Below are positions 36,073 to 59,920 of a stretch of 64,000 nt of DNA, piece by piece (the stretch's first letter is position 1; each line of letters starts with the position of its first letter). The notes below the pieces were generated by a model. It had not been told where the DNA came from, did not search any database, and was given only the letters and a program-made list of their open reading frames with translations. Source of the DNA: an uncultured Aquimarina sp. (GTDB taxonomy: Bacteria; Bacteroidota; Bacteroidia; Flavobacteriales; Flavobacteriaceae); the NCBI GenBank assembly GCA_947495425.1, contig CANLYR010000002.1:62001-126000 (forward strand). The letters run 5' to 3'. The position numbers and the translations under genes were made by a program.

Positions 36073-36095
36073 AGTTATTAATAATTGATAATATT

Positions 36096-36111: not shown

Positions 36112-36156
36112 AAAAGTAAGTATTATTTTAGTAGTCACAAATTAGAAATATCAATA

Positions 36157-37737: not shown

Positions 37738-37774
37738 TAGGTAAATAGATAAAGAGAAACAGCAAGGCTATAGT

Positions 37775-39040: not shown

Positions 39041-41043
39041 CCTTTACAGCACAAATACTTCAGGGCATTCCTAAAGAATTACCTCAAAAAAAATCACTAA
39101 ACCCCAAGGTTAGCCGTGCTCCTAAACGAAAGCAAATTCTTACTTTAGAGGAGAAAAAACTTGCGCTTAGAAACGCATTACGATATTTTCCTAATAACTG
39201 GCATGAACTACTTGCTGAAGAATTCCTAGAAGAACTAAATGAATTTGGCCGTATTTATATGTATCGTTTTATGCCAGAGTATACAATCTATGCAAGACCA
39301 TTAGATGAATATCCAGCAAAGATTAAACAAGCAGCAGGAGTAATGTTAATGATTCAAAACAATCTGGATCATGCAGTTGCTCAACATCCTTATGAGCTCA
39401 TCACTTATGGAGGTAATGGTGCTGTATTTCAAAATTGGGCACAATACATACTTACCATGCAATATCTTGCAATGATAAACGAAGAACAGACCCTACATAT
39501 GTATTCTGGTCATCCCATGGGATTGTTTCCCTCTTCAAAAAGTGCCCCACGAGTTGTTGTTACCAACGGAATGATGATTCCTAATTACTCTACACCCGAT
39601 GATTGGGAAAAATATAATGCTTTAGGAGTTACACAATATGGACAAATGACTGCAGGTAGTTATATGTATATTGGTCCGCAAGGTATTGTTCATGGTACTA
39701 CGATCACTGTGATGAATGCTTTCAGGAAAACATTAAAACCTGGTGAATCCTATGCGGGAAAAATTTTCTTGACAGCTGGTCTGGGAGGTATGAGCGGTGC
39801 GCAACCCAAAGCTGGAAACATTGCGGGATGCATAACCGTATGTGCAGAAGTAAATCCTCAAGCCGCTACAAAACGGTATGAACAAGGCTGGGTAGACGAA
39901 ATTTTGGATGATTTAGGTAAATTAGTCATTAGAGTAAAGAAAGCCATAGATAACAGAGAAATTGTATCCATCGCATACCAAGGTAATATTGTTGATGTAT
40001 GGGAACAGTTTTATAAAGAAAATATTGATATAACGCTTGGTTCAGATCAAACCTCTCTACATAATCCCTGGTCTGGGGGATATTATCCTGTTGGATTGAG
40101 TTTTGAAGAATCAAACACAATGATCAGCAATGATCCTGAGAATTTTAAAAGAAAAGTTCAGGAATCACTACGAAGACATGCAGCAGCAATCAATAAGCAC
40201 ACAAAAAAAGGTACTTATTTTTTCGATTATGGCAATGCTTTCCTATTAGAAGCATCACGATCAGGTGCAGATATAATGGCAAAAAACGGTATAGATTTCA
40301 AATACTCATCCTATGTACAAGATATTTTAGGTCCGATGTGCTTTGATTATGGATTTGGTCCGTTTCGATGGGTCTGTACTTCTGGCAAGCCTGAAGACCT
40401 AGATAAAACGGATCAAATTGCGTTGGAAGTAATGGAGGCTATTAAAAATGTCTCTCCACAAGAAATCCAACAACAACTGCAAGATAATATCACCTGGATA
40501 CGCGAAGCAAAACAAAATAAGCTCGTAGTAGGTTCTCAAGCTAGGATTCTATATGCCGATTCAGAAGGAAGGATAAAAATCGCTGAAGCCTTTAATAAAG
40601 CGATAAAAAATGGGGAGATCTCTGCTCCTATAGTTTTAGGGAGAGATCACCACGATGTTAGTGGTACCGATTCTCCATATAGAGAAACTAGTAATATCTA
40701 TGACGGTAGTAAGTTTACAGCAGATATGGCAATTCATAATGTCATTGGTGATAGTTTTAGAGGAGCTACCTGGGTTTCTATCCATAATGGCGGAGGTGTT
40801 GGATGGGGTGAAGTCATTAATGGTGGGTTTGGTTTACTACTTGACGGATCGCAAGATGCCTCAGAAAGATTAAAAAACATGCTCTTTTATGATGTAAATA
40901 ATGGCATTTCAAGAAGAAGTTGGGCAAGAAATAAAGAAGCTTTATTTGCGATAAAAAGAGAAATGGAGCGTACTCCCGAACTAAAAGTTACTTTAGCAAA
41001 CCATGTTGATGATGCTATTTTGAATGCTACTTTTGAGAATTAA
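39037..41043 (+). CDS. hutU: Urocanate hydratase
   Basis: 668 residues, NAD+-dependent. Conserved blocks: LITYGGNGAVFQNWAQYILT, YSGHPMGLFPSSKSAPRVVV, TAGSYMYIGPQGIVHGTTIT, AGLGGMSGAQPKAGNIAGC and DQTSLHNPWSGGYYPVGLSF. The C-terminal part has YVQDILGPMCFDYGFGPFRW, with the conserved Cys, and SGTDSPYRETSNIYDGS. It is longer than the classic ~555-residue HutU, which fits the long form seen in Bacteroidota. It converts urocanate to imidazolonepropionate. Start codon overlaps the hutI stop. Confidence 0.95.
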   Translation: MTFTAQILQGIPKELPQKKSLNPKVSRAPKRKQILTLEEKKLALRNALRYFPNNWHELLAEEFLEELNEFGRIYMYRFMPEYTIYARPLDEYPAKIKQAAGVMLMIQNNLDHAVAQHPYELITYGGNGAVFQNWAQYILTMQYLAMINEEQTLHMYSGHPMGLFPSSKSAPRVVVTNGMMIPNYSTPDDWEKYNALGVTQYGQMTAGSYMYIGPQGIVHGTTITVMNAFRKTLKPGESYAGKIFLTAGLGGMSGAQPKAGNIAGCITVCAEVNPQAATKRYEQGWVDEILDDLGKLVIRVKKAIDNREIVSIAYQGNIVDVWEQFYKENIDITLGSDQTSLHNPWSGGYYPVGLSFEESNTMISNDPENFKRKVQESLRRHAAAINKHTKKGTYFFDYGNAFLLEASRSGADIMAKNGIDFKYSSYVQDILGPMCFDYGFGPFRWVCTSGKPEDLDKTDQIALEVMEAIKNVSPQEIQQQLQDNITWIREAKQNKLVVGSQARILYADSEGRIKIAEAFNKAIKNGEISAPIVLGRDHHDVSGTDSPYRETSNIYDGSKFTADMAIHNVIGDSFRGATWVSIHNGGGVGWGEVINGGFGLLLDGSQDASERLKNMLFYDVNNGISRRSWARNKEALFAIKREMERTPELKVTLANHVDDAILNATFEN

Positions 41044-41052
41044 ATAGTATAT

Positions 41053-42021
41053 ATGATTTCAAAAAAGATGAAAAACTACTTAAAACCAGAGGCTAATTTT
41101 TGGAGTGGGCGTAGCTCTGCGAATCAATTGTACTTACATGAAAAAATAAAATGTATTGATCTACAAAATGATACACTTCCAAAAACCAAAAAAAAATCAT
41201 TTAGCATATTAGGATATGCATGTGATGAAGGCGTAAAAAGAAACCAAGGGAGAATTGGCGCTGCTCAAGGCCCTAATACTATCAGAAAAATGCTTGCACC
41301 TTTATCAAATCATTTTTCTGATCAGATTGAAATTTTGGATGTTGGCAATATCATTTGCAATAAAGAAGACCTAGAATCAACGCAACAAGAAACTTCTCAT
41401 AGCATTGCCGCGCTCTTGCATCATAACATGTTTCCGATAGTTCTGGGAGGAGGTCATGACCTTGCCTATGCACACTATAATGGAATTAAAAAACAGTTCC
41501 CTGATAAAACTATTGGTATTATTAATCTTGATGCACATTTTGATCTTAGAAAAGTAGAAACTCAAGGAAATTCTGGCACACCTTTTTATCAGATCGCCAA
41601 AGAAAATGAATCTTTTAAATATTTATGCCTTGGTATTCAGAAAGAAGCAAATAATCCAGAATTGTTTAAAACCGCTAATGAATTAAATGTTAAACACATA
41701 GAAAACACACAATTCACTATTGAAAATAAAAATGTTGTTTTTACTAAAGTTAAAGACTTCATTTCATCAGTAGATCATATTTATTTAACTATAGATATTG
41801 ATGGATTTTCTTCTGCATATGCTCCCGGAGTGAGCGCACCATCTCCAATGGGATTTTCAATAGATATTGCATTAGAAACCATACAATTAATTTGCAAATC
41901 TGAGGCATTACTGAGTATTGATATGGTAGAACTTAATCCAAAATATGATATAGACCATTGTACTGCAAGACTTTGTTCAAGATTAATTTACAATATCATA
42001 CATTGGTTGTCATTTCCATAG
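41053..42021 (+). CDS. hutG: Formimidoylglutamase (arginase/ureohydrolase family)
   Basis: 322 residues. The binuclear Mn ligands are visible: GGGHDLAYAHYNGIKKQF, IGIINLDAHFDLRKVETQG (DAHxD) and YLTIDIDGFSSAYAPGVSAP (DxDxxD-like). It splits formiminoglutamate into formamide and glutamate. It lies 9 nt after hutU and ends the operon; its presence means the locus uses the one-step HutG route rather than HutF plus deformylase. A second in-frame ATG eight codons in is also possible as start. Confidence 0.93.
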   Translation: MISKKMKNYLKPEANFWSGRSSANQLYLHEKIKCIDLQNDTLPKTKKKSFSILGYACDEGVKRNQGRIGAAQGPNTIRKMLAPLSNHFSDQIEILDVGNIICNKEDLESTQQETSHSIAALLHHNMFPIVLGGGHDLAYAHYNGIKKQFPDKTIGIINLDAHFDLRKVETQGNSGTPFYQIAKENESFKYLCLGIQKEANNPELFKTANELNVKHIENTQFTIENKNVVFTKVKDFISSVDHIYLTIDIDGFSSAYAPGVSAPSPMGFSIDIALETIQLICKSEALLSIDMVELNPKYDIDHCTARLCSRLIYNIIHWLSFP

Positions 42022-44935: not shown

Positions 44936-45400
44936 TTACTCAAACATCAAAGAAATAAACTCGGCAACGCACGCAGGTTTTTCGATGTTTTCAATTTCAA
45001 CATTACAATCCCATGTAATCTTAAGTCCATTATCGCTATACGCTTCAATTTTAGCAATGCTGCCATGCAAACGAATACGACTATCAACTGGTAGTACATG
45101 CGGAAAACGTACTTTATTCAGTCCGTAATTTACGCCCATGGTCAAACTCTCGACAACAACAAGATCCATAAGCATTTTAGACAACAGAGAAATCGATAAG
45201 AATCCATGTGCTATTGGTTTCTTAAAAGGTGATTCCTTTTTAATTCTCTCTATATCAACATGCACCCACTGAAAATCTTGGGTCGCCTCGGCAAATGCAT
45301 TGATCATTTCCTGAGTCACCAGTACCCATTCTCCTGTTGGTAATGATTTTCCTTCATAGGTTTTAAACACTTCAAAGTTTTCGCAAATTAGTTGATTCAT
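44936..45400 (-). CDS. MaoC-family dehydratase (R-specific enoyl-CoA hydratase-like)
   Basis: 154 residues, hot-dog fold. The catalytic Asp/His region is in MINAFAEATQDFQWVHVDIE (ATxDxxxxH form: ATQDFQWVH), followed by KPIAHGFLSISLLSKMLMDL (AHGxLS). It hydrates enoyl-CoA or dehydrates hydroxyacyl-CoA. It is the last gene of the minus-strand run from 50124, 79 nt after the FabG-like reductase, in a region of acyl-CoA metabolism. The hot-dog motifs are intact. Confidence 0.92.
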   Translation of the reverse strand: MNQLICENFEVFKTYEGKSLPTGEWVLVTQEMINAFAEATQDFQWVHVDIERIKKESPFKKPIAHGFLSISLLSKMLMDLVVVESLTMGVNYGLNKVRFPHVLPVDSRIRLHGSIAKIEAYSDNGLKITWDCNVEIENIEKPACVAEFISLMFE

Positions 45401-45432
45401 AATGTTATACTTTAGTGATCAGATTAAATGCT

Positions 45433-45475
45433 CTCACCCTTCGAGAGCCTCACCCTTCGAGAGCCTCAGGGTTCG
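45433..45475. repeat. Tandem 16-bp repeat (2.7 copies)
   Basis: CTCACCCTTCGAGAGC occurs at 45433-45448 and again at 45449-45464, with a partial third copy CTCAGGGTTCG to 45475. It lies between the reductase stop and the MaoC start. CTCTC and GAGAG can pair into small hairpins. It is markedly more GC-rich than its surroundings. It may be a dispersed intergenic repeat; no other copy was seen in this window. Confidence 0.6.
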
Positions 45476-45479
45476 TGCG

Positions 45480-46217
45480 CTATCTTGATATTCCTCCATC
45501 AATGGTTAAACAAATACCCGAGACATAAGATGCTTCGTCTGATGCCAAATATAAATACCCATAAGCAATATCCATAGGTGTAGCTGCTTTTTGGAGCGGT
45601 ATCTGCTTTTTTATACCTTCAATATGTTCTTCAGGAATTTGCTCTGTCATCTCTGTTAAGGTAAAACCGGGTGCTAGTGCATTGGCGGTTATCCCATATT
45701 TACCCAATTCCATCGTCCAAGTTTTTGACATCGCTATTACACCAGCTTTGGTAGCTGCATAATTCGTTTGACCAAAATTTCCTCGTAAACCCACATTGGA
45801 TGCTGCAGAAACTATTCGACCATAGCCGGCATCTTTCATATATTGCGAAACTACTTGCGTACACAGAAAAACACCTTTGAGATTCACATCGATCACAGCA
45901 TCCCACTCAGCCTCACTCATTTTATGAAGCGTTCGATCTTTTGTTATACCTGCATTATTGATTAGAATATCGATCTTTCCGTATTGATCATAAATTCTTT
46001 TAGCTTCAGTTTTTATGGCGTCTTTATCGGTTACTGAAATGTGAGTAAACTCGGCGGTATGATTTTTTGCAGTAATCGCTTTGGCCACACGTTCACCTTC
46101 TGGCAAAAGATCCCATATAATCACAGTAGCTCCTTCTCTGGCGAATAAGGTTGATATAGCTTTTCCTATTCCTCTGGCACCACCGGTTACGATCGCTACT
46201 TTATTTTTTAGTCTCAT
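45480..46217 (-). CDS. SDR-family 3-oxoacyl-(ACP/CoA) reductase, FabG-like
   Basis: 245 residues. The cofactor motif is AIVTGGARGIGKAISTLFAR, then NNAG in DILINNAGITKDRTLHKM. The catalytic Ser and YxxxK lie in GRIVSAASNVGLRGNFGQ and TNYAATKAGVIAMSKTW. ANALAPGFTLTEMTEQIPE and GICLTIDGGIS close the domain. FabG-like reductases act on 3-oxoacyl thioesters. Since the surrounding genes are catabolic, a 3-hydroxyacyl-CoA/3-oxoacyl-CoA step is more likely than fatty-acid synthesis. Confidence 0.92.
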   Translation of the reverse strand: MRLKNKVAIVTGGARGIGKAISTLFAREGATVIIWDLLPEGERVAKAITAKNHTAEFTHISVTDKDAIKTEAKRIYDQYGKIDILINNAGITKDRTLHKMSEAEWDAVIDVNLKGVFLCTQVVSQYMKDAGYGRIVSAASNVGLRGNFGQTNYAATKAGVIAMSKTWTMELGKYGITANALAPGFTLTEMTEQIPEEHIEGIKKQIPLQKAATPMDIAYGYLYLASDEASYVSGICLTIDGGISR

Positions 46218-46241
46218 TTTTTATATTTTTATAGCATTAGT

Positions 46242-47219
46242 TTAAGAACATTCAATAACAACCTTACCTCTTACCTTTCTATTCATCATTTCTTCCAGAG
46301 CTTTTGATGTCTGATCCAAAGGGTAGATTTTGTGTATATGTGGTTTCAATTTACCTGCTTCATACCATTGCATAAGTTCTATAGTGTTTTGCATATTTTT
46401 TCCGGGTGTTTTCATGGCAAAACTCCCCCAAAACACTCCTACTATTGCACACCCTTTGAGTAAAGCAAGGTTAAGAGGTACTTTTGGTATGTCTCCTGCT
46501 GCAAATCCTACTACAAGATAACGTCCCTCCCATGCCATACTTCGTATTGCAGGTTCAGAATATGATCCTCCGACCGGGTCATATACGACATCAACGCCTC
46601 TGCCTTGTGTTAACTCCTTCATTTTTAATTTCAAATCCACGTCAGAATAATTAATTACCTCATCAGCACCATATTGGCTACATAACTGTAATTTTTCTTC
46701 TGAAGATGCTGCTGCGATAACCTTTGCCCCCATAAGCTTACCTAGTTCAACAGCAGCTAAACCCACGCCACCAGAAGCCCCTAAAACCAATAGCGTTTCT
46801 CCTTCCTTAAGCTTAGCTCTATCTTTTAATGCATGATATGAGGTGCTATATGCCATCATAAAGGACGCTGCAATAGGAAAATCCATTAACGGAAGTTTTT
46901 TAAAACAGGCACTGGCAGGAACCGCAACAGCTTGAGCATAACCACCATGCATTACAAATCCAAAAACCTCTTCGTCAACATTTAGATGAGTAACTCCTTC
47001 TCCAACTTCTTTAACTATTCCTGCGATGTCACTTCCGGGTGTGAATGGTAATTCTGGCTTAAATTGGTATAACCCCTGGATAATCAAAGTATCCGGAAAG
47101 TTAACTCCACAAGCTTTTACCTTAACAATAACCTCATCAGACTTTGGCTTTGGCTCTTTAACTTCTTCAAGAACCAAGTCAGACGGCGGACCAAATTTTT
47201 TACAAACAATTGCTTTCAT
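46242..47219 (-). CDS. NADPH:quinone oxidoreductase-like MDR protein
   Basis: 325 residues, zinc-free medium-chain reductase. N-terminal catalytic domain: VKACGVNFPDTLIIQGLYQF, LPFTPGSDIAGIVKEVGEGV. The nucleotide-binding domain has TLLVLGASGGVGLAAVELGK near residue 142. It reduces quinones or enoyl thioesters/alkenals with NADPH. It lies 14 nt from the following MDR gene's end and 24 nt before the SDR, so all share one transcript. Physiological substrate unknown. Confidence 0.9.
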   Translation of the reverse strand: MKAIVCKKFGPPSDLVLEEVKEPKPKSDEVIVKVKACGVNFPDTLIIQGLYQFKPELPFTPGSDIAGIVKEVGEGVTHLNVDEEVFGFVMHGGYAQAVAVPASACFKKLPLMDFPIAASFMMAYSTSYHALKDRAKLKEGETLLVLGASGGVGLAAVELGKLMGAKVIAAASSEEKLQLCSQYGADEVINYSDVDLKLKMKELTQGRGVDVVYDPVGGSYSEPAIRSMAWEGRYLVVGFAAGDIPKVPLNLALLKGCAIVGVFWGSFAMKTPGKNMQNTIELMQWYEAGKLKPHIHKIYPLDQTSKALEEMMNRKVRGKVVIECS

Positions 47220-47233
47220 AAAAGATGGCTTAT

Positions 47234-48238
47234 TTATTCTTCAATAACTTTTAATACTAATTTTCCTTTTTTATCACCCGAGAATAATCGCAGGAAAGTT
47301 TCATGAAAATTTTCTATCCCATTATATATATCTTCTTTACTTTTCAGTTTTCCATGAGCCATCCAGCCGCCCATTTCTTTGGCTGCTTTACCGTAATCTT
47401 TGGCATAATCCATAACGACCATCCCTTGCATTGTGGCGCGATTTACCAAGAGTGATAAATAGTTTGAAGGACCTTTGATAGCTGTTTTACTATTGTACTG
47501 CGAAATCGCTCCACAAATTACAATACGGGCATGCATTCGTAATCTACCCAAAGCAGCATCCAAAATTTCACCTCCTACATTATCAAAATACACATCGATC
47601 CCTTTAGGGCATTCTCTTTTTAAACCTGTATGAATATTTTCTGATTTATAATCGATCGCACCATCAAACCCCAATTCTTTGACAACATATTTGCATTTAT
47701 CTGCTCCACCTGCAATTCCGATTACTTTACAACCTTTAATCTTTGCTATTTGACCAACAACACTACCAACAGCGCCTGCTGCTCCTGATACTAAAACAGT
47801 ATCCCCTTCTTTAATCTTTCCTACTTCTAAAATTCCGAAATATGCGGTCATTCCGGGCATTCCTAAGGTACCTATATACATTGGCAAAGGAGCCAAATCA
47901 GGATCGACCTGATACCAGTTATTTCCATCTGTTACCGCGTATTGTTGAACGCCACCCCAGCCTGTGAGGTAATCTCCTTCTTTAAATTTTGGATGATTGT
48001 TGGCTTTTATCACCTTGCCCACAGAGCCAGAACGCATCACGTCATCTATTTGCACTGGTTCTATATATGACTTACCTTCATTCATCCAACCTCGCATTGC
48101 AGGGTCTAGAGATATATAATGTTGTTGAATAAGCACTTCACCTTCCTTAGGCTCGGGAATTGGATTTGTTTGCAGTTCCCACGTATCTTCTTCAGGAAGT
48201 CCTGATGGTCTTTTTTTAAATATTAATTGCTTATTCAT
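47234..48238 (-). CDS. NADP-dependent alkenal/prostaglandin reductase-like MDR protein (CurA-like)
   Basis: 334 residues. The start (RPSGLPEEDTWELQTNPIPE, then HYISLDPAMRGWMNEG) is diagnostic of the prostaglandin reductase / leukotriene B4 dehydrogenase branch. VLVSGAAGAVGSVVGQIAKI is the cofactor loop, and GIDVYFDNVGGEILDAAL the conserved C-terminal block. It reduces conjugated double bonds of alpha,beta-unsaturated carbonyls. It is one of two MDR reductases in this run, consistent with handling reactive enones or enoyl intermediates. Confidence 0.92.
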   Translation of the reverse strand: MNKQLIFKKRPSGLPEEDTWELQTNPIPEPKEGEVLIQQHYISLDPAMRGWMNEGKSYIEPVQIDDVMRSGSVGKVIKANNHPKFKEGDYLTGWGGVQQYAVTDGNNWYQVDPDLAPLPMYIGTLGMPGMTAYFGILEVGKIKEGDTVLVSGAAGAVGSVVGQIAKIKGCKVIGIAGGADKCKYVVKELGFDGAIDYKSENIHTGLKRECPKGIDVYFDNVGGEILDAALGRLRMHARIVICGAISQYNSKTAIKGPSNYLSLLVNRATMQGMVVMDYAKDYGKAAKEMGGWMAHGKLKSKEDIYNGIENFHETFLRLFSGDKKGKLVLKVIEE

Positions 48239-48292
48239 GATTTGTGTTTTTTAGTATTAAAGTTGTTTGCTTACTTTTTATTTTGAAAATGT

Positions 48293-49048
48293 TCACAGTG
48301 AAGTTCCGCCGTCAAGGGTTATCGTTTGCCCTGTGATAAATTTAGTAGTATCAGAAGCTAACCATACGACAGCTTCTGCAATTTCTTCTGCAAGCCCGTA
48401 GCGTTTCATAGGAATTACGCTTTTAAGCAATTGATCCATATCGGGTCGAGCAGATAACAGCTTATCTAATAAGGCAGACTCGGTATATCCTGGGCATACT
48501 GCATTGATACGTATATTTTTGGTTGCATATTCTAATGCTGCAGATTTTGTCATTCCTACTACTGCAAATTTACTAGCACTATATGATAGGTTATTTAATG
48601 AAGCTTTCAAACCCGCTAATGAAGCAATATTTACAATATTCCCTCCTCCTTGTTTTATCATTTGTTGTAAGGCAAGTTTCATACAATAGAATACACCGGT
48701 CTGATTTACTGCGATCACACTATTCCAATCTTCGAGTGTATATTCTCCTGTTTTTGTCATATGCCTAGGGCCAATACCTGCATTATTTACGATTACATCT
48801 AATCGTCCATGCGTTGCAACTGTTTTAGCAATCAACTGCTCAACATCATCAAACTTTGTAACATTAGCGGTAATTACCTTAGCATTACCTCCAGCTTTAT
48901 TAATTTCATCAGCTATTTTTTGTGCTTTTTCTTCTTTGATATCAGAAACGATCACGTTAGCCTGATACGTTCCAAAGTGTTTAGCAGTAGCAGCTCCAAT
49001 ACCTGAGCCTGCTCCGGTAATGATAACTATTTTATCTTTTACTTCCAT
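48293..49048 (-). CDS. SDR-family oxidoreductase
   Basis: 251 residues. Cofactor motif IVIITGAGSGIGAATAKHFG, NNAG in RLDVIVNNAGIGPRHMTK, active site NIVNIASLAGLKASLNNLSY followed by SASKFAVVGMTKS (YSASK). NAVCPGYTESALLDKLLSA and FITGQTITLDGGTS are typical. Substrate unknown; a hydroxyacyl-CoA or alcohol dehydrogenase function would suit the neighbourhood. It is 54 nt upstream of the alkenal reductase gene and 19 nt after the DUF1330 gene. Confidence 0.92.
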   Translation of the reverse strand: MEVKDKIVIITGAGSGIGAATAKHFGTYQANVIVSDIKEEKAQKIADEINKAGGNAKVITANVTKFDDVEQLIAKTVATHGRLDVIVNNAGIGPRHMTKTGEYTLEDWNSVIAVNQTGVFYCMKLALQQMIKQGGGNIVNIASLAGLKASLNNLSYSASKFAVVGMTKSAALEYATKNIRINAVCPGYTESALLDKLLSARPDMDQLLKSVIPMKRYGLAEEIAEAVVWLASDTTKFITGQTITLDGGTSL

Positions 49049-49067
49049 ATTATTCTGTTTTTACATC

Positions 49068-49454
49068 CTATTTAGAGGTACATACTATTAATCGTGAATC
49101 TTGTAATGCCAGGCTACGCAGTTTTGCAGGATATCCTTCTGCTGTTATCATTCTTAAAAAATCTTTCTTACTAGCGTATTCTATAATCAATATTTTATCC
49201 CATTCATTATAATTTTCGGGACCAATAAGGTTAAAAATTGGTTTCCCTTGATATATTATTTTTGCTTTTGAGGCAATAAAAAAAGGAATCACAGCATTCA
49301 TGTATTGTGCATATACCTCTACTCCTGTCGTTCCGGTTTCAACTACTTTATCTTTGAATTTTAAAAGATTGAGCATTTCAAAAGGCCCTTCTAAAGGGAA
49401 GGCAGAAAAATCTTCGAACTGCTTAGTTGTAACATTTACATATGGATCGTTCAT
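49068..49454 (-). CDS. DUF1330 domain-containing protein
   Basis: 128 residues of the dimeric alpha/beta-barrel type: GPFEMLNLLKFKDKVVETG, AQYMNAVIPFFIASKAKIIY, and IEYASKKDFLRMITAEGYPA, the DUF1330 signature. Family function is unknown; related folds include monooxygenases and muconolactone isomerases. It sits 34 nt after the transglutaminase-like gene and 19 nt before an SDR, in the same transcript. Confidence 0.88.
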   Translation of the reverse strand: MNDPYVNVTTKQFEDFSAFPLEGPFEMLNLLKFKDKVVETGTTGVEVYAQYMNAVIPFFIASKAKIIYQGKPIFNLIGPENYNEWDKILIIEYASKKDFLRMITAEGYPAKLRSLALQDSRLIVCTSK

Positions 49455-49488
49455 GCCTGTATTATATAAATTTTAAAATTCATTATTT

Positions 49489-50124
49489 TTATAACTTAAT
49501 TTCGGTTACATTTTTATATTTCTCGAAAAGTTCGGGATAATGTTCTTGTACATTATTAAAAATGAAATCTACAGGAACATCCTCAAAATGACCGTAGTCT
49601 TCTAAATATTCCATGAACTCGTTTCCTGCATTGTTATACTCTTGAAAAATAGAATCATTTTCTCCATCAAAATCTAATGGCGCTACATTGCACATCCTAC
49701 ATAAAGATTCGTTGAATGCTGGTGATACTTTTAACCATGTATCATTTATAAACAAATCAACCATACCATGAGGTGTTAATTCGTTGGTACCGAATTTTTC
49801 GACTAATCGCTCTACTGCTATATGATTCTTTACTTTTGCCAAATGAATCCTTGCAGGTATTCCCAAAGCTCGTAAACCCGCAATTAAAAGAATAGACTTG
49901 TCAATACAATGTCCTGTTGTTTTTTTTGCAATGATGCTCGCGATATATCCTTCTTTAGAAAAATTTAATGTGTAAGGATCATATCGCCATTCATCACGCA
50001 CTTTGATATATAATCGTTTTGCTTTTTCTTTTTGAGTTAATTCATCCGTTTTGAACTCTTTAACGAGTTCTTGAATTTCTTCGGTCTGATAATCAAAAAA
50101 ATATGTTGGTGCTAAATAATCCAT
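49489..50124 (-). CDS. Transglutaminase-like cysteine protease fold protein
   Basis: 211 residues. The Cys-His-Asp triad is readable: KTTGHCIDKSILLIAGLRAL (Cys near residue 75), and LTPHGMVDLFINDTWLKVSP (His and Asp near 118-123). AKRLYIKVRDEWRYDPYTLN precedes it as in transglut_core proteins. There is no signal peptide, so it is cytoplasmic. It is the first gene of the minus-strand run 50124-44936; the 152-nt gap upstream holds no gene. Function in an acyl-CoA cluster is unclear: amide hydrolysis or a structural role are both possible. Confidence 0.88.
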   Translation of the reverse strand: MDYLAPTYFFDYQTEEIQELVKEFKTDELTQKEKAKRLYIKVRDEWRYDPYTLNFSKEGYIASIIAKKTTGHCIDKSILLIAGLRALGIPARIHLAKVKNHIAVERLVEKFGTNELTPHGMVDLFINDTWLKVSPAFNESLCRMCNVAPLDFDGENDSIFQEYNNAGNEFMEYLEDYGHFEDVPVDFIFNNVQEHYPELFEKYKNVTEIKL

Positions 50125-50276
50125 TTAAATAATAATAAGTTACGTCTATTAATAAGTATTTTCGTTTACTATTCTGCCTCTAGTAGGCTATTTCTTAATA
50201 CTCCGAGGTCACATTTCTAGCTTTCAAAGGTTATTTTCATTTTCTGAAGGTCATTTTATACAGTTTTGGTATATGA

Positions 50277-51329
50277 TTAATCTATTTTGTTCTTTTGAAT
50301 CGCTTGCAGAGCAAGATTGCAAAGCAACGCTGCAGCTTTATCTAATTCTGCAAAACGAGAATCTTCAGTAAGTCCTTTACTATATCTATAAAAAATCTGT
50401 TGTGCAATTACTGCGATCTTAAAAAGTCCGAATACATAATAAAATACGATATGATCCACTTCTTTTCCACTTTTCTTTGCATATAGTTCTACAATTTCGC
50501 TTCTCCCCGGATTACCATCCATAACCGTTGGTGATGGGATTCCTTGTTGTACAAGAGGATGGTCACTTCCCATAGTCCAATACCCAAGAGAAGTTCCCAA
50601 ATCCATCAAAGGGTCACCCAAGGTTGCCATTTCCCAATCCAATACTGCTACTACATCTTGCCAATTATCATTTTTGAAAACAATATTATCATACTTAAAA
50701 TCATTATGAACTAAGCTGTGTCGATATGCTTTTGGTTGATTATCTTCTATCCATCGTATTACTTTGGCTGCTGCAGGAACATCTTCAGTTGCAGCATTTA
50801 GATATTGCTTGCCCCAATTAAACACTTGGCGCTCTACATATCCCTCTGGTTTGCCCAAATCTGCTAATCCTGCTGCTTTATAATCTACAGTATGAAGTGC
50901 GACGAAGGTATCGAGCCAGGAATTGGCTATAGTTTTAAAATCTGCTGCTGGAATATTTCTTTTTTTAGCTTCGTGTGCATTAAGAATAATCCCATTTACT
51001 TTTTCCATGATATAAAAGGAGCAACCTAGAATACTATCATCTTCTGTATACGCATACATCTTGGGAACTTTGGAAAAGGCATTATATATTTTAGATTGTA
51101 CTTTGTATTCTCGCCCCATATCATGACCTCTTTTGATTGCTCCAAAAGGCGGACGCCGTAATACATATTCTTTGTTTTCTATCTGTAATAAATAGGTAAG
51201 GTTGGAATACCCATGCGTAAACTGCGTTACTTGCCAATCACTTTGATCACTAGTAATAAGTCCTTCTTTTTGAAGAAAAGATTTTAATGTGGTTTCGTTT
51301 AGTTCTTCGCCTTTGCGTACTTCTTGCAT
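50277..51329 (-). CDS. APH-type phosphotransferase, ACAD10/11 N-terminal-like or LvaA-like (hydroxyacyl kinase)
   Basis: 350 residues. Kinase-like landmarks: the ATP-lid region VTQFTHGYSNLTYLLQIENK and YVLRRPPFGAIKRGHDMG, the catalytic loop HSLVHNDFKYDNIVFKNDN (HxDxxxxN), and VLDWEMATLGDPLMDLGTSL (metal-binding D). This branch includes the kinase domain of human ACAD10/11 and Pseudomonas LvaA, which phosphorylate the 4-hydroxyl of 4-hydroxyacyl-CoAs. The acyl-CoA dehydrogenase gene lies only 6 nt upstream, which strengthens that reading. Function is inferred by family and context. Confidence 0.88.
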   Translation of the reverse strand: MQEVRKGEELNETTLKSFLQKEGLITSDQSDWQVTQFTHGYSNLTYLLQIENKEYVLRRPPFGAIKRGHDMGREYKVQSKIYNAFSKVPKMYAYTEDDSILGCSFYIMEKVNGIILNAHEAKKRNIPAADFKTIANSWLDTFVALHTVDYKAAGLADLGKPEGYVERQVFNWGKQYLNAATEDVPAAAKVIRWIEDNQPKAYRHSLVHNDFKYDNIVFKNDNWQDVVAVLDWEMATLGDPLMDLGTSLGYWTMGSDHPLVQQGIPSPTVMDGNPGRSEIVELYAKKSGKEVDHIVFYYVFGLFKIAVIAQQIFYRYSKGLTEDSRFAELDKAAALLCNLALQAIQKNKID

Positions 51330-51335
51330 ATTGTA

Positions 51336-52556
51336 TTAATTGATATTCGAATATGTATTGATCACACTTTTCCCCAGTTGGTACATATGTACTTCATCGG
51401 GACCATCTGCCAGGCGAAGCATTCTTGCTGCCGCGAAAAAGTGTGCTAGCGGAGTATCGGGCCCAACCCCTTTACCACCATGAATTTGCATGGCTCTATC
51501 AATCACTTTCAGTGCCATATTAGGAGCTACAATTTTAATCATAGCAATGAGATCTTTAGACGTTTTATTACCTTCTTTATCCATTTTGTCGGCTGCGGAA
51601 AGTGTCAGCAATCTAGCCTGTTCGATTTCGCATTGAGACAAAGCTATTTCCTGTCGAATACTACTATAATCTTTAAACATTTTACCAAAAGCAATACGTT
51701 CTGAAGCCCTTTGAGACATTAGTTCTAGTGAACGCTGTGCCATACCGATCAGTCGCATACAATGATGAATTCTTCCAGGACCCAGCCGTCCTTGGGCTAT
51801 TTCGAAACCTTTGCCCTCGCCCAGAATTAAATTTTCTTTGGGTACGCGTACATTTTCGAGTACAATTTCGGCATGCCCCTCTGGAGAATCATAAAACCCA
51901 AATACAGACAATGGTCTGATTATATTTACTCCTGTTGCATCCATAGGCACTAAAACCATGCTTTGTTGTTGATGTCTGTGCGCATTTGGATCAGTTTTTC
52001 CCATAACAATAGCAATCTTACAATGTGGATCCATACCGCCAGAAGACCACCACTTACGACCATTGATCACAAAATCATCGCCATCTAATACAATCGAAGT
52101 TTCAATATTTGTAGCATCAGAAGAAGCTACTTGAGGTTCTGTCATCAAAAATGCAGAACGTATTTCTCCGTTCATTAATGGGTCTAGCCATTGTTTTTGT
52201 TGATCAGGAGAACCATATTTTGCCAGAACCTCCATATTACCAGTATCAGGAGCGCTACAGTTAAACACTTCTGAAGACCACAATACGCGCCCCATGATCT
52301 CTGCCAATGGCGCATATTCTAAATTGGTTAATCCAGGGCTTAACGCTCCATAGCTTTTTGGCAAAAAGAGATTCCATAATCCAGCTGCTTTAGCTTTAGT
52401 TTTAAGATCTTCTAATCCTGGCCATCGCTTCCAACGATTATCAGGGTTATAATTAAATGTATTTACTTCTTCCTCTACCGGATATATGTGTGCATCAAAA
52501 AAAGCATTTAATTTTTCTTGAAGCGAACTTATTTTTTCTGAGTACTCAAAATTCAT
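51336..52556 (-). CDS. Acyl-CoA dehydrogenase, ACAD10/11-like
   Basis: 406 residues. FAD/acyl-CoA landmarks: [40 protein letters not shown], the FAD-binding segment [20 protein letters not shown], and [20 protein letters not shown] near the C-terminus. The WWSSGG and [15 protein letters not shown] features match the ACAD11/LvaC branch rather than ordinary beta-oxidation enzymes. In that branch the enzyme works with a kinase to remove a 4-phospho group, giving an enoyl-CoA. It is in tandem with the kinase gene (6 nt). Confidence 0.92.
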
Positions 52557-52636
52557 TCTAAAAATTATTTATTGTCTCTCGACTACCATGAAGATAAAAG
52601 TCATATTATTTTCTTTATTCAGTATAGAAAGAGGTC

Positions 52637-53413
52637 TTATCCCGCGATCATATATCCTCCATCTGCAGTATAGACACCACCTGTCATATATGCTCCGGCA
52701 TCAGATGCCAATAGGCAAACCACGCCTGCCATCTCCTCTGGCATTCCCATCCTTCCACTTGGTAAGGTTTTTTCAATCTTGTTAAGCACCTGTTCATTTT
52801 GCCAAAGTGCAGCACTAAATTTGGTTTTAATTAATCCGGGGCACAGTACATTGGCACGAATCCCATGTGTACCCCACTCTTTAGCTTGGTTTTTAGTTAG
52901 CATCAATAAAGCTGCTTTACTAGTACTATATAAACCCAAACCTGCACTTGGATGTAATGCCTCTACCGAAGCAATATTAATAATGCTGCCTCCTCCACGT
53001 TTTGTCATCGAGGGTAATATTAAATTGGATAGTATCCAAGGTGCTTTTACATTTATATCCATTATCTTATCAAAAACTCCTTCATCGGCATCTTCAATAG
53101 GGCCATATACTGGATTAATCGCAGCATTATTGACTAAAATATCTATGCCGCCAAAATGATCGATAGTTCTTTGCACTAAGTGTTCGCGTTGTTCTGCCTT
53201 TCCGATGTGGCAGGCAATTCCAACAGCCTCTAATCCAACTGTTTTAAATTCGGTAACCACTTTATCAATTGATTCCTGGCTTCGGCTACTAATTACTACT
53301 TTTGCACCATGCTCTGCTAATCCTTGAGCAATTGACTTTCCTATTCCTTTGCTAGAACCTGTAACGATGGCAACTTTTCCTTCGAGATTAAAAGATTGTT
53401 TACTGCTATTCAT
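52637..53413 (-). CDS. SDR-family oxidoreductase
   Basis: 258 residues. Cofactor motif AIVTGSSKGIGKSIAQGLAE, NNAA in DILVNNAAINPVYGPIED, active site SIINIASVEALHPSAGLGLY followed by STSKAALLMLTKNQ (YSTSK). ANVLCPGLIKTKFSAALWQN and YMTGGVYTADGGYMIAG are typical. It resembles peroxisomal-type DHRS4-like and 3-oxoacyl reductases. It lies 80 nt upstream of the ACAD gene and probably provides the 3-hydroxyacyl or ketoacyl step. The substrate is not proven. Confidence 0.92.
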   Translation of the reverse strand: MNSSKQSFNLEGKVAIVTGSSKGIGKSIAQGLAEHGAKVVISSRSQESIDKVVTEFKTVGLEAVGIACHIGKAEQREHLVQRTIDHFGGIDILVNNAAINPVYGPIEDADEGVFDKIMDINVKAPWILSNLILPSMTKRGGGSIINIASVEALHPSAGLGLYSTSKAALLMLTKNQAKEWGTHGIRANVLCPGLIKTKFSAALWQNEQVLNKIEKTLPSGRMGMPEEMAGVVCLLASDAGAYMTGGVYTADGGYMIAG

Positions 53414-53511
53414 GTATTGGCTGGTATATATTTTTATGTGAAAAGTGAATTTAGAAAGTTATCGTTTTAATAGTTGCTTTATACTTTCCTAATTTCAACT
53501 ACCTCGATGTT

Positions 53512-55326
53512 TTAGTTTAAAATTTCTTTTTCTCCGACTATTGTTAGCACCTCTTCATCCATTAGGATTTCTGCAAGACCATTCGTTTTTGGTAATTCGT
53601 ATTTAAAAAAGAATTTCATTGCATGAATCTTACTTTCATAGAAATTTTCTGTATGTTTTTTATCCCCGGTAACCAATGCATTTTTTGAATGTGAAGCAAT
53701 ATCTAACCATATCCATGCCATGGTAATTGTACTTAGAAACTCCATAAATGGTGTTGCATCAGATAAAAAGCGTTGATAATCACCTTTTTTAGCAAATCCT
53801 ACTAAGAAGCCTATTACCTTTTGAGCCAATTGTAATTTTTCTCCGAGCTTCGTTGCATATTTTCGTACATCATCATATTTGGATACATCTTGAATGGTTT
53901 GCATAATTTCGGTGGTTAACAATTCTAGCGCTTTGCCGTTTTCCATAAGTAACTTTCTACCCAATAAATCTTGAGACTGAATTCCGGTTGTACCTTCATA
54001 AATTGGAAATATGCGAATATCTCTATGATATTGCTGTAAAATGAAGTCTGAACAGAAACCATACCCACCCAATACTTGTAATCCATTAGATACTGCCTCT
54101 GCTCCCATTTCAGAAGGATATGTTTTTACCATGGGTATAATTAACTCGAGTAATAAGGCATATTTTTCTTTTTCTGCTGCATCCTGAAGCGTTTCTTTAA
54201 GATCAAAATATCTTGAAGCGAGTAATACTAAACTTAAAGAGCCTTCTGCCACTACTTTTTGTTGTAGCAACATCCTGCGAACATCTGGGTGATTGAGGAT
54301 CAGTGTTTGTCCTTTGTCGGGATCTTTCTTTCCGGTACTACTTAGCTTTCGACCTTGTGGACGTTCTTTGGCATATTGCAAAGAAGCATGATACGCGGCA
54401 GAAGCGATAGCTGCTGCACCACGTCCTACGGCAATTCGAGCGCCATTCATCATTAGAAACATATATTTCAGACCTTGGTGTGCTTCGCCTACTAACCACC
54501 CTTGACAATCATCTGCGTCACCAAATCCAAGATGTGTAGTACAATATCCACGTTGTCCCATTTTTTGAAAATCAGCAACAGTAGTTACATCATTTTGTTG
54601 TAATTCCCCGTTTCCATCTGGGCGCTTTTTTGGTACTACAAATAATGAAATTCCTTTGGTTCCTGCAGGTGCACCTTTTATACGTGCTAATACTAAATGC
54701 ACAAAATTATCGGCATACTGATGATCTCCTCCTGATATAAAAATTTTCTGTCCGGTAATTTTATAGTGTCCACTATCAGTTGGTACTGCTTTAGTAACAA
54801 CATCAGATAATGAGCTACCTGCTTGCGGTTCTGTAAGGCACATGGTACCACCCCACTCACCAGAAAGCATGTGAGGTACGTACGTATCATTAAGCTCTTT
54901 ATTCCCAAAGTGCACAATAAGTTCTGCTGCACCTAGTGTAAGTCCGGCATAACCAGGCAGATGGTTATTAGCTGCATCCTGAATAAATGCAGATGCAGTA
55001 TACATCATCATAGGTAATTGCAAACCACCAGCATCGTAGTCAAAGGTTCCAGAAATGAGTCCCATCTCTCCTCCTTTTTTCATCATCACCTCTACCTGTT
55101 TATGTACGATCACTTTCCCATTTTCATAATAGGCAGGATGCTCATCCATCTCCTTTATGTATGGAAACAATTCTCTGTCTGAAAACTCTTTTACAGAATC
55201 CAAAAACATATCTAAAGAAGCTGTATCATGATCGATAAACCGGTCTTGCTGTAATACTTCTCCTAGTTGATGTACATCATATAAAAGATATTTTAGGGTC
55301 TCAAAATCTATATATTCTTTTGCCAT
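53512..55326 (-). CDS. Long-form acyl-CoA dehydrogenase (FadE-like)
   Basis: 604 residues, longer than the ~380 of classical enzymes because of an N-terminal cap and C-terminal helical extension. Landmarks: GEWGGTMCLTEPQAGSSLSD, KITGQKIFISGGDHQYADN, FLMMNGARIAVGRGAAAIAS, and NGLQVLGGYGFCSDFILQQY. The FYEGTTGIQSQDLLGRKLL-type motif (IYEGTTGIQ) holds the region after the catalytic-base loop. It oxidises acyl-CoAs to enoyl-CoAs. A 20-bp palindrome lies 66 nt upstream of the start, and a Crp/Fnr gene further up. Confidence 0.92.
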   Translation of the reverse strand: MAKEYIDFETLKYLLYDVHQLGEVLQQDRFIDHDTASLDMFLDSVKEFSDRELFPYIKEMDEHPAYYENGKVIVHKQVEVMMKKGGEMGLISGTFDYDAGGLQLPMMMYTASAFIQDAANNHLPGYAGLTLGAAELIVHFGNKELNDTYVPHMLSGEWGGTMCLTEPQAGSSLSDVVTKAVPTDSGHYKITGQKIFISGGDHQYADNFVHLVLARIKGAPAGTKGISLFVVPKKRPDGNGELQQNDVTTVADFQKMGQRGYCTTHLGFGDADDCQGWLVGEAHQGLKYMFLMMNGARIAVGRGAAAIASAAYHASLQYAKERPQGRKLSSTGKKDPDKGQTLILNHPDVRRMLLQQKVVAEGSLSLVLLASRYFDLKETLQDAAEKEKYALLLELIIPMVKTYPSEMGAEAVSNGLQVLGGYGFCSDFILQQYHRDIRIFPIYEGTTGIQSQDLLGRKLLMENGKALELLTTEIMQTIQDVSKYDDVRKYATKLGEKLQLAQKVIGFLVGFAKKGDYQRFLSDATPFMEFLSTITMAWIWLDIASHSKNALVTGDKKHTENFYESKIHAMKFFFKYELPKTNGLAEILMDEEVLTIVGEKEILN

Positions 55327-55391
55327 TGTGTGAAGTTTTTTACTATTGAGTATTAATACTTCACTAAATTTCGTAAATATTTGATGATATC

Positions 55392-55411
55392 TTATTAAAC
55401 TAGTTTAATAA
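55392..55411. promoter_or_regulatory. Perfect 20-bp palindrome upstream of the long acyl-CoA dehydrogenase gene
   Basis: TTATTAAACTAGTTTAATAA reads identically on both strands. It lies 66 nt upstream of the dehydrogenase start and 101 nt downstream of the Crp/Fnr gene end, in a 185-nt gap with no ORF. This is the expected location and symmetry for a dimeric repressor operator (TetR/FadR-like or Crp/Fnr half-sites). Confidence 0.55.
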
Positions 55412-55511
55412 ATACAGAATTTTAGATACTCTTAACTTTTATTACATATATAAGTACTTCCTTAGAGCCTACGATTAGTAAAAGGTGAAATCCTTGGTAT
55501 TTGAGAACACT

Positions 55512-56117
55512 TTATTTCTTCTCGCTAAGTCGTTTTCGAATTTTAGAAAGTCCGACTGGTGTTATACCAAGATAGGAAGCTATAAGATATTGCGGAACAC
55601 GTTGTAAAAGTGTTGGACGTTTCTCTAGCAATTGCAGATAGCGTTCCTGATTAGAAAGATTTCTTAATTGATTAATTCGCTGAAAATTTATAACAAACGT
55701 TCTTTGCATTGATAATCGACCAAATCGCTCTAACTGATGCGAATGATCATAGACCTTTTGCTGGTCTGTTTTTGATATAGAATATACAATAGAATCTTCT
55801 GTCGCTTCAAGATACGTCTCTGAAGGAGTTTGCTCTATAAACGCATATAAATCTGTAAAGAAATAACCTTCAGTAAAGAATTCCATGACTCGAGTGGTAC
55901 CTTCTTCTATGGTATAATAAGAGATACATCCTTGCTTTACAAAATAAAAATCATGTATGTAGTGATTTGGTTTTAATAAAAATGTTCCTTTTTTAAAGGT
56001 TTCTTTTTTAAAAAACTTAAGGCCAAACTCCATATCTGAATCACTAACATGGGTAAAAGATCGTATCGTTTTCTTTAAATCTTCCAAAGTATACTTGCTA
56101 TTTCTACTAAAGAACAA
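55512..56117 (-). CDS. Crp/Fnr-family transcriptional regulator
   Basis: 201 residues. The cyclic-nucleotide-binding-like beta roll spans ~35-120 (KGTFLLKPNHYIHDFYFVKQ, GCISYYTIEEGTTRVMEFFT). The C-terminal winged-helix part is short (RYLQLLEKRPTLLQRVPQYL, IASYLGITPVGLSKIRKRLS). The canonical cAMP-contact residues are not obvious, and no Fnr-type N-terminal Cys cluster exists. Start is TTG at 56117 (no ATG or GTG in frame after the stop); a second TTG at 56087 is also possible. It is divergent from the histidine kinase gene. It may regulate the downstream acyl-CoA genes. Confidence 0.85.
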   Translation of the reverse strand: MFFSRNSKYTLEDLKKTIRSFTHVSDSDMEFGLKFFKKETFKKGTFLLKPNHYIHDFYFVKQGCISYYTIEEGTTRVMEFFTEGYFFTDLYAFIEQTPSETYLEATEDSIVYSISKTDQQKVYDHSHQLERFGRLSMQRTFVINFQRINQLRNLSNQERYLQLLEKRPTLLQRVPQYLIASYLGITPVGLSKIRKRLSEKK

Positions 56118-58376: not shown

Positions 58377-58877
58377 ATGACCAAAGAACAACAGCAATTA
58401 ATTCTAAACTGGGTTGAAGATGCTCAAGTCTTATTGAATTGTCATCTGTCTATGGCAGAATCAACTAGAAAAAAACACAGAAATATAGGAATTCTTTCGG
58501 CTGTTTTATCAGCGCTTGTAGGCTCTAGTATATTTGCATCCTTGGGGCATGAAGACACTAGTAAAACACTTATAATCCTAACAGGATTGATTAGTCTTTG
58601 CGCTACCATTTTAACAAGTGTACTTGCCTTTTTAAAACTTCCAGAAATTGCTAATCAATATCATAATTCTGGCAACGAATATGCTGCCATACGCAAAGAA
58701 CTTGAATTTTTATTCACTTTTGAATCTTCAAATGATGAGTACGTTAAAAACGAGATTAAGCGGTTAAAGATTAGATGGGATGAAATACGAAAAAGTTCAA
58801 TCCCTATTTCTACAAAAAGCATTAAAAAATTTAACCCGAATGTATCATTAAACATGGGTAGTTTTTCCAATAATTAA
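58377..58877 (+). CDS. SLATT-domain two-TM protein
   Basis: 166 residues. A short amphipathic N-terminal helix (LILNWVEDAQVLLNCHLSMA) is followed by two membrane helices (NIGILSAVLSALVGSSIFAS, ~37-57; TLIILTGLISLCATILTSVL, ~64-84) and a long charged C-terminal helix (YAAIRKELEFLFTFE, YVKNEIKRLKIRWDEI). This matches SLATT domains, predicted pore-forming effectors of nucleotide-signal defence systems (established for the family by Burroughs et al.). It is 23 nt upstream of a YaaC-family gene on the same strand. No cyclase or SLOG partner is visible. Role is inferred. Confidence 0.75.
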   Translation: MTKEQQQLILNWVEDAQVLLNCHLSMAESTRKKHRNIGILSAVLSALVGSSIFASLGHEDTSKTLIILTGLISLCATILTSVLAFLKLPEIANQYHNSGNEYAAIRKELEFLFTFESSNDEYVKNEIKRLKIRWDEIRKSSIPISTKSIKKFNPNVSLNMGSFSNN

Positions 58878-58900
58878 AACCTTAGGATAATCAAAAGAAT

Positions 58901-59920
58901 TTGACAGAGATAGAAGAAAAATACGGCTTCCCCCTCTTTACTAGAGAAAACAACAAGGTTTATCTTGGTAATAGTAAGAAAATTGTAATTTCAGATATTT
59001 GGGCTTTTTGGGATTATGTAATTAAAAAATTCAATTTTGAAAAAGAGTTTATGAACTCCTTATTAGAGCAAGCCAAACACTTTTATAATGCTGCCGAGAA
59101 TAGTCCTGTACATTCTAAACCGTTACTCTATTATTATTCATTCCTGAATCTATCTAAAGTTTTGATTAATATCGATAAAAAGTATGGGAAAATGAGATAT
59201 TTGCACGGTATTGGTGAAAAACACAATAACCGATTTAGTCAGTCTACCATACGAATCGCCGAGAAAAAACATAATCTTAAGAATGTATCTATAGAACTTC
59301 ATGAGTCTTTGGATGGTATTGGTATTAACCTTCGCAGACCTCTAATTATAAATCTAAAAGAGTATATGAGGCATTGTATTGGTGTGCATAGAGCATATAG
59401 CGAAATATATAACTTAGATGAAGTGTTTTTTCGAATTAAGGACATGAAAATATATAAGAGCGGTAAGAAAATAATTTCCAGATTTAGAATTTCCTCTGCA
59501 TCGCCAAACATTTTATCTTTGAAAGACGTGGGATATAATATCATACAAGAGGAAGACGAATATTATTGGCAAGAAGAAGTTCTAACTACTAGTTATAGTA
59601 TGACTAGAAGTGCATATTATACATTATCAAATCATCTGCGAACTAAGGGTATTTGGTATTTTGTAAATGACGATGGATATACGCTGTATATATCGAATCA
59701 TCCAAAAGATCGTTATGCTCCAGAAATAATAATATACAACACTATGTTTTTTTTGGGTTCAATAACAAGATACCATCCTTACATGTTTGATCAGATTTTT
59801 TCGGATAAAGAACAATGGCTAATGAGCGAGTTTTTGACAACACAACCTAAGCAATTTTTATATTTGTCTACTGCCAAAATTTTAGGATTAACTGTGTATA
59901 GTGCTTATACTAAGTTTTAA
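58901..59920 (+). CDS. YaaC-family protein
   Basis: 339 residues, starting with TTG at 58901: the frame is open only from 58886, and the first internal ATG is at about residue 48, inside the domain. The signature segments are LEQAKHFYNAAENSPVHSKP followed by LLYYYSFLNLSKVLIN, and the C-terminal MFFLGSITRYHPYMFDQIFS and QFLYLSTAKILGLTVYSAY, as in YaaC-like proteins. No enzyme motif or membrane helix is evident. YaaC function is unknown. The SLATT gene 23 nt upstream is probably its partner. Confidence 0.72.
   Translation: MTEIEEKYGFPLFTRENNKVYLGNSKKIVISDIWAFWDYVIKKFNFEKEFMNSLLEQAKHFYNAAENSPVHSKPLLYYYSFLNLSKVLINIDKKYGKMRYLHGIGEKHNNRFSQSTIRIAEKKHNLKNVSIELHESLDGIGINLRRPLIINLKEYMRHCIGVHRAYSEIYNLDEVFFRIKDMKIYKSGKKIISRFRISSASPNILSLKDVGYNIIQEEDEYYWQEEVLTTSYSMTRSAYYTLSNHLRTKGIWYFVNDDGYTLYISNHPKDRYAPEIIIYNTMFFLGSITRYHPYMFDQIFSDKEQWLMSEFLTTQPKQFLYLSTAKILGLTVYSAYTKF

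Follow-up and report, generated by a model that had tools for sequence, protein, structure and literature searches.

An uncultured Aquimarina sp. (assembly GCA_947495425.1) carries, as two adjoining genes, the two enzyme halves that make up the single protein ACAD11 of mammals. Together these genes, one for a kinase and one for an acyl-CoA dehydrogenase (ACAD), probably form a two-enzyme module of a lipid-catabolic operon which would follow the same two-step chemistry as ACAD11, the kinase phosphorylating and the dehydrogenase removing the 4-hydroxyl of an acyl-CoA. The pair lies in a 64,000 nt stretch of contig CANLYR010000002.1 (positions 62,001 to 126,000), which is referred to here as the window. 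Both genes are intact open reading frames (ORFs) on the minus strand (Table 1) and 6 nt (51330-51335) separate the end of the dehydrogenase gene from the start of the kinase gene, confirming the layout of an ACAD11-like dehydrogenase with a phosphotransferase directly downstream that had been given in the initial annotation of this DNA. Pfam assigned the kinase to the APH family (E 5.9e-41) and recognised the N-terminal, middle and C-terminal acyl-CoA dehydrogenase domains in its neighbour. The description of the two as a split enzyme was not retained; no ORF of at least 520 aa spans any kinase or ACAD match in the loci checked, and separate kinase and ACAD genes are the usual bacterial state and not a split fusion.

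By the features tested the dehydrogenase is a clear member of the ACAD10/11-LvaC subfamily, with a predicted activity as a phosphate eliminase, because R257, H265, R268 and D384 stand at the signature places. Residues R257, R262, H265-C266-M267-R268 and D384 correspond to R626, R631, HCMR 634-637 and D753 of mouse ACAD11, and the signature stretches are one of 14 residues and LADGPDE. In ACAD11, R626, H634 and R637 are reported to hold the 4-phosphate and to be absent from conventional ACADs, and a non-conservative substitution of any one of them is reported to block the phosphate step (PMC12440821); D753 is described as the catalytic base (PMC12440821, 2025 structure paper). The nearest solved proteins are ACAD11 itself (8v3u and 2wbi; E 2e-130, 439 bits), followed by 4hr3, named a putative acyl-CoA dehydrogenase (E 9e-128, 430 bits), and the next solved ACAD, 5ol2, is far behind (E 7e-40, 141 bits). 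The phosphate contacts, the catalytic Asp and a closer similarity to ACAD11 than to ordinary ACADs were all found, and the initial description of this protein as ACAD11-like agrees with every residue tested and with the solved-protein matches. The HCMR motif was present in 158 of 159 aligned rows (duplicates included), a count that is partly circular as one of the scan patterns held part of the motif; the non-circular count, made on the ACADs near Bacteroidota kinases, gave R, H, R and D in 16 of 16, with C in 12 and A in four. The second ACAD of the operon, ACAD604, is without the R..H..R set and Glu replaces the Asp (M, V, G and E at the four signature positions).

Judged from its residues and from its place on the tree, the window kinase is a homologue of the ACAD11 kinase domain which keeps the catalytic residues of that domain and is a member of a sister clade. 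Its nearest solved proteins are 9o56 (E 5e-85), 3dxp (E 4e-46) and ACAD11 (8v3v, E 5e-46); it is 42% identical to 9o56 and 33% identical to mouse ACAD11 over 293 columns, as against 36-46% for the clade-A bacterial kinases. D210, N215, R167 and D231 correspond to D220, N225, R176 and the DWE aspartate of mouse ACAD11. R73, beside the presumed alphaC Glu (E74), was named as a further contact from its neighbourhood only, and R86 of the ACAD11 paper fell on F in the residue count. Kinase trees of 58 and 57 rows resolved three groups, A, B and R, each with 99-100% support. Clade A (25 rows) holds mouse ACAD11, 3dxp and kinases of Burkholderia, Marinobacter, Microbulbifer and others, clade B (26 rows, seven phyla) holds the window kinase, other Bacteroidota, Pseudomonas, Pseudoalteromonas, Streptomyces, Bacilli, Deinococcus, Planctomycetota, Acidobacteriota and 9o56, and clade R (five rows) is composed of Sulfitobacter, Novosphingobium and Parvibaculum sequences; an archaeal kinase of Halocatena stands apart from all three. 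None of the 25 clade-A and 26 clade-B kinases on the tree has lost the HxD His and Asp, the Asn, the Arg equivalent to R176 (a CoA contact in ACAD11) or the DWE Asp; in every clade-R row, too, the two catalytic residues (Asp and Asn), this Arg and the DWE Asp are present. A tree forced to unite nine Bacteroidota kinases with only mouse ACAD11 was rejected by the approximately unbiased (AU) test (p 7e-5; here and in the ACAD test below the groups were named after the first trees and the p values are optimistic). Of the proposed placement in the ACAD10/11 branch, what stands is the relationship to the ACAD11 kinase domain and the conserved catalytic machinery, and what is not supported is the branch as named; the residues and matches of the dehydrogenase place it with ACAD11 and the kinase falls outside the ACAD11 kinase clade.

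The association of the two genes was addressed by searching for them in other genomes. At the cut-offs used, 15 of 56 genomes (the host included) had both genes and 41 had neither; the 15 belong to one genus, of which 33 genomes were searched, and do not represent independent events. This shared distribution and the conserved gene order described below argue against a pairing by chance. A set of 198 Bacteroidota genomes (completeness of 90% or more, host again included) yielded the ACAD (E <= 1e-100) in six and the kinase (E <= 1e-25) in 18, and all six were within the 18. Stretches of 16-17 kb around the kinase were taken from the other 17 kinase genomes, and an ACAD with R, H, R and D was present near the kinase in 16 of them, giving 17 of 18 with the host. 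Eleven of these 16 are diverged ACADs (L204, L206-L208 and L210-L216), 38-42% identical to that of the window; it was the kinase, not the motif, that led to them, and the motif reads HCMR in seven and HAMR in four. The two genes lie within about 2.5 kb of each other in 15 of the 16 and about 8 kb apart in L217, and the kinases of all 17 genomes fall into clade B (97% support). Outside the Bacteroidota, the search made for a reference levulinate (lva) operon covered eight named genomes (both genes), 149 and 398 genomes of one Pseudomonas genus (for the ACAD and for a clade-A kinase, respectively), 36 of the 398 (ACAD) and, in a second Pseudomonas genus, 25 genomes (ACAD). To these were added 14 stretches, mainly from the surroundings of second ACAD copies (the truncated one in G070 excepted). 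The ACAD was found in 144 of the 149 genomes of the first genus and in all 25 of the second, and a match to the clade-A kinase query (E <= 1e-8), unsorted as to clade, in at least 386 of the 398. Among the matches listed for the 149 shared genomes, 143 had both genes, one the ACAD only, two the kinase only and three neither (Fisher p 7e-5, in a test that ignores relatedness).

On the tree of ACADs, a single clade for those paired with clade-B kinases (17 of 42 rows) was rejected (AU p 4e-4), and therefore the dehydrogenases have changed kinase lineage while keeping their phosphate site. This tree contained 54 rows with a partner label A, B or R, less 12 near-duplicate or redundant ones, and omitted the fused mouse protein and the rows labelled "none". 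The labels were taken from the best-matching query within 6 kb and not from the kinase tree, and the label "none", given to 47 of 102 rows, many of them from Pseudomonas or from short contigs, is no evidence of absence. Such switching of partners with a conserved site is the best sequence evidence that clade-B kinases would make the same kind of phosphorylated product.

The pair is embedded in a block of genes (Table 1). In the 14 other genomes of the genus that possess the pair, the 17 kb surrounding it show the block in the same order. The genes for the PIG3-type medium-chain dehydrogenase/reductase (MDR), the FabG-like short-chain dehydrogenase/reductase (SDR) and the MaoC-like hydratase are lacking in L196 only, and an enoyl-CoA hydratase is located between SDR b and the CurA-type MDR in L039 (by Pfam) and L220 (by tblastn); L187 has a 254-aa ORF of like start in the same place. 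The upstream SDR and the neighbouring MaoC, MDR and SDR genes listed in the initial annotation are thus present, and the same block contains ACAD604, the CRP-like regulator, the transglutaminase-core protein and the 128-aa ORF, of which it made no mention. The transglutaminase-core protein had no match in L039-L043. The 128-aa protein was present also in L039, where it directly follows the kinase, and in L040, and had no match in L041-L043 or L204-L220; DUF1330 was matched, with scores short of the Pfam cut-off, by two of three members of its family but not by the window ORF, and the nearest fold is that of RPA0582 (3dca/3hhl). From its size and place alone, this protein is possibly a functional analogue of LvaB, the small partner of LvaA. 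The CurA-type MDR is nearest to 4b7c, named a probable oxidoreductase, and then to double-bond, prostaglandin and 2-alkenal reductases. Beyond the block, the window contains histidine utilisation genes at 36085-42021 (an aromatic amino acid lyase and an amidohydrolase by Pfam, urocanase and formimidoylglutamase by eye) and, at 58377-59920 and on the strand opposite to the operon, genes for a SLATT_4 protein and then a YaaC-like protein (Pfam).

Table 1. Coordinates of the gene pair, of the surrounding operon and of ACAD11-type genes standing alone.
Feature	Position	Strand	Remarks
CRP-like regulator, cNMP-binding domain, first gene of conserved block	55512-56117	-	14/14 congeneric loci
ACAD604, acyl-CoA dehydrogenase (604 aa), PF12806 C-terminal domain	53512-55326	-	14/14 congeneric loci
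SDR a, 258 aa, nearest solved protein DHRS4	52637-53413	-	14/14 congeneric loci
ACAD11/LvaC-type acyl-CoA dehydrogenase, 406 aa	51336-52556	-	predicted 4-phosphoacyl-CoA phosphate eliminase; Pfam, solved-protein matches, signature residues
APH-fold kinase, 350 aa, clade B	50277-51329	-	predicted 4-hydroxyacyl-CoA kinase; Pfam, solved-protein matches, tree, residues
Transglutaminase-core protein, 211 aa	49489-50124	-	14/14 congeneric loci
DUF1330-like ferredoxin-fold protein, 128 aa	49068-49454	-	14/14 congeneric loci
SDR b, 251 aa	48293-49048	-	14/14 congeneric loci
MDR, CurA / prostaglandin reductase / 2-alkenal reductase family, 334 aa	47234-48238	-	14/14 congeneric loci
MDR, PIG3/quinone oxidoreductase-like, 325 aa	46242-47219	-	13/14 congeneric loci
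FabG-like SDR, 245 aa	45480-46217	-	13/14 congeneric loci
MaoC-like hydratase, 154 aa, last gene of block	44936-45400	-	13/14 congeneric loci
Lone ACAD11-type dehydrogenases	L146:7598-8776, L147:7742-8920, L148:7390-8568, L149:7732-8910, L181:8443-9621		Pseudomonas

In the pathway we propose, the kinase would use ATP to phosphorylate a 4-hydroxyacyl-CoA at its 4-hydroxyl, giving a 4-phosphoacyl-CoA, which the dehydrogenase would bind through R257, H265 and R268 while D384 abstracts the alpha-proton. A transient use of FAD would then expel the phosphate and yield a 2-enoyl-CoA with no net oxidation; in the phosphate elimination by ACAD11, FAD is reported not to be consumed (PMC12440821). The MaoC-like hydratase would hydrate the 2-enoyl-CoA, an SDR would oxidise the 3-hydroxyacyl-CoA and thiolysis would be carried out by an enzyme encoded elsewhere. 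The suggestion that the neighbouring genes finish beta-oxidation can be upheld for the MaoC-like hydratase and the FabG-type SDR, which could do so, and less well for the CurA-type MDR, which belongs with enone and 2-alkenal double-bond reductases. The other SDRs and this reductase would instead feed the module by reducing 4-oxo groups and the double bonds of enals and enones, with SDR a as the candidate for interconversion of 4-oxo and 4-hydroxy forms. Our guess is that the substrate derives from oxidised lipid fragments or oxylipins, because the families of the DHRS4-like SDR and of the CurA-type MDR act on carbonyls and enones. For comparison, loss of an ACAD11-like gene in Rhodosporidium is reported to abolish growth on ricinoleate (PMC5922974), and microorganisms fed with ricinoleate are reported to yield 4-hydroxydecanoate (PMC12440821).

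Several observations weigh against this reading. The window kinase lies in sister clade B (100/99), outside the clade that holds the ACAD11 kinase, from which it differs at positions nearly fixed in each clade, and no report of activity for a clade-B kinase was found in the literature searched, which misses most subscription papers. Neither an acyl-CoA synthetase nor a thiolase was found among the operon genes scanned. One of the 17 other Bacteroidota kinases (L205) had no ACAD of this type in the 17 kb examined, the best kinase and ACAD of six Pseudomonas genomes lie on different contigs (five genomes) or 195 kb apart (one), and five Pseudomonas ACADs, 52-54% identical to that of the window, had no kinase match nearby (L146-L149 and L181).

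The first of these points is also what lends some weight to the same module logic acting on another substrate, in which the clade-B kinase would phosphorylate a different hydroxyl (in position, stereochemistry or chain class, or on a hydroxylated non-fatty acyl-CoA) and the dehydrogenase would eliminate that phosphate. Clade B is set apart from clade A with full support, and the substrate of its kinases may differ from that of the ACAD11 kinase because the two clades differ at positions nearly fixed in each. Window position 209 is G in 25 of 25 clade-A kinases and N in 21, Y in four and G in one of the 26 of clade B; position 276 is E in 22 of 25 and R in 26 of 26, position 311 is G in 25 of 25 and Q in 26 of 26, position 326 is A in 23 of 25 and F in 26 of 26, and positions 44, 163, 245 and 321 likewise passed the cut for an A/B difference. 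They were selected from the full alignment, in which some such columns are to be expected between any pair of clades. The partner ACAD, however, has the ACAD11 phosphate site unchanged, a site that holds the 4-phosphate in the ACAD11 model (PMC12440821), and ACADs have switched between the kinase clades; a different substrate is thus an unlikely explanation.

Still less probable, to the point of being a marginal alternative, is a strict levulinate operon which would convert levulinyl-CoA through 4-hydroxyvaleryl-CoA to 3-hydroxyvaleryl-CoA. A kinase, an LvaC-type ACAD and an SDR do occur together here, as is reported for P. putida and P. citronellolis (PMC6692424). In the scan of the operon (44936-56117; the rest of the genome was not searched), however, no gene was found for the sigma-54 regulator LvaR, the ligase LvaE, the transporter LvaF/G or the histidine phosphatase, and the operon instead has genes for a CRP-like regulator, for another ACAD and for a double-bond reductase; on the absence of LvaR, LvaE and LvaF/G from the genes scanned the strict lva operon was rejected. 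Products of lipids carrying 4-hydroxy or 4-oxo groups would fit the operon better than levulinate, because it is without LvaE, LvaR and transport genes and has DHRS4-like and enone-reductase-like genes. The weakest candidate, an ordinary beta-oxidation ACAD beside an unrelated APH-type kinase for antibiotics or small molecules, could draw on weak matches to thiamine-kinase and APH models (far below the cut-offs of these) and on the naming of 9o56 as an aminoglycoside phosphotransferase, and was rejected as highly improbable in view of the signature residues of the ACAD, the similarity of the kinase to ACAD11 (E 5e-46) and the fact that 17 of the 18 Bacteroidota kinase genomes have an ACAD with this signature close to the kinase.

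With respect to known systems, the module of 4-hydroxyacyl-CoA kinase and phosphate eliminase predicted here resembles peroxisomal mammalian ACAD11 in its two domains, in the R..H..R and Asp residues of the dehydrogenase and in the catalytic residues of the kinase, whereas its genes are separate and its kinase belongs to the sister clade; mitochondrial ACAD10 is known to us from papers only. The lva cluster of P. putida and P. citronellolis (LvaA, LvaC, LvaD) shares the separate kinase, ACAD and SDR genes and a predicted 4-phosphoacyl-CoA intermediate (PMC6692424, PMC11342911), a comparison made by description and not on the LvaA or LvaC sequences, and it differs in its lvaR, lvaE and transporter genes, which are not in the window operon. 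LvaA is reported to be 29% identical to the ACAD10/11 kinase domains, and Burkholderia orthologues of LvaA and LvaC to have replaced the halves of ACAD10 in vitro (PMC11342911). Burkholderia shares the separate kinase and ACAD, but the B. guangdongensis kinases L067, L127 and L138 belong to clade A (the assayed protein itself is not on the tree). The nearest solved relative, PDB 9o56, is of the same clade as the window kinase but groups with kinases of Bacilli, and the literature search found no paper naming it.

No lva operon was recognised in the Pseudomonas stretches examined (L198-L200 were not scanned for LvaE or LvaR). L198-L200 have clusters of a phosphatase, kinase, SDR and ACAD which resemble part of the P. 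citronellolis lva cluster; L150 and L182 contain a clade-B pair, L201-L203 clade-A pairs and L197 an ACAD without kinase match. In L032, L034, L035, L046, L048, L150 and L198-L200 the kinase or the ACAD has a gene for a histidine phosphatase in its neighbourhood, and such a gene is reported from the lva cluster of P. citronellolis (PMC6692424). Clade-A kinases are also present in Pseudomonas genomes at L141, where the neighbouring ACAD is 31% identical to that of the window, and at L153. In the wider genome scan, of which the best 80 of at least 595 stretches were kept and which says nothing on overall spread, the nearest named loci were from Flavobacteriaceae and Saprospiraceae assemblies, and a scan of viral contigs with the kinase gave no relative. 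On Sulfitobacter plasmids (hits H3, H5 and H25) a "vanG Van ligase" prediction in PLSDB overlies the ACAD11-type match and is probably an annotation artefact, and in a metagenome-assembled genome titled Klebsiella pneumoniae (L056) the ACAD11-type gene groups (91%) with mostly alphaproteobacterial ones, so the title may be wrong.

Neither the chemistry nor the dehydrogenase subfamily nor the arrangement as two genes is new, given ACAD10/11, the lva genes and the Burkholderia orthologues. What is new to us is that a flavobacterial genus has the pair in a conserved operon, that the kinases divide cleanly into clades A and B with the window kinase in B, and that diverged R..H..R/Asp ACADs occur near clade-B kinases; no report on these points, nor on Bacteroidota or clade-B kinases of the pathway, was found in the literature searched. 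The two papers that define the biochemistry of ACAD10/11 date from 2024 and 2025, and where relatives of the kinase are annotated in the public record they are labelled "phosphotransferase family protein" or "aminoglycoside phosphotransferase". As a tentative and rather doubtful extension, clade B could be a separate and widespread class of hydroxyacyl-CoA kinases with near-fixed residues and possibly substrates of its own, which in these flavobacteria, together with the DHRS4-like SDR, the 2-alkenal-reductase-like MDR and the DUF1330-like protein, would detoxify and consume 4-hydroxy and 4-oxo products of lipid peroxidation as a bacterial counterpart of mammalian 4-hydroxynonenal clearance. 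A single assay of a clade-B kinase would point to what many genes and PDB 9o56 may do, and would reveal if more than one kinase lineage serves the 4-hydroxy route.

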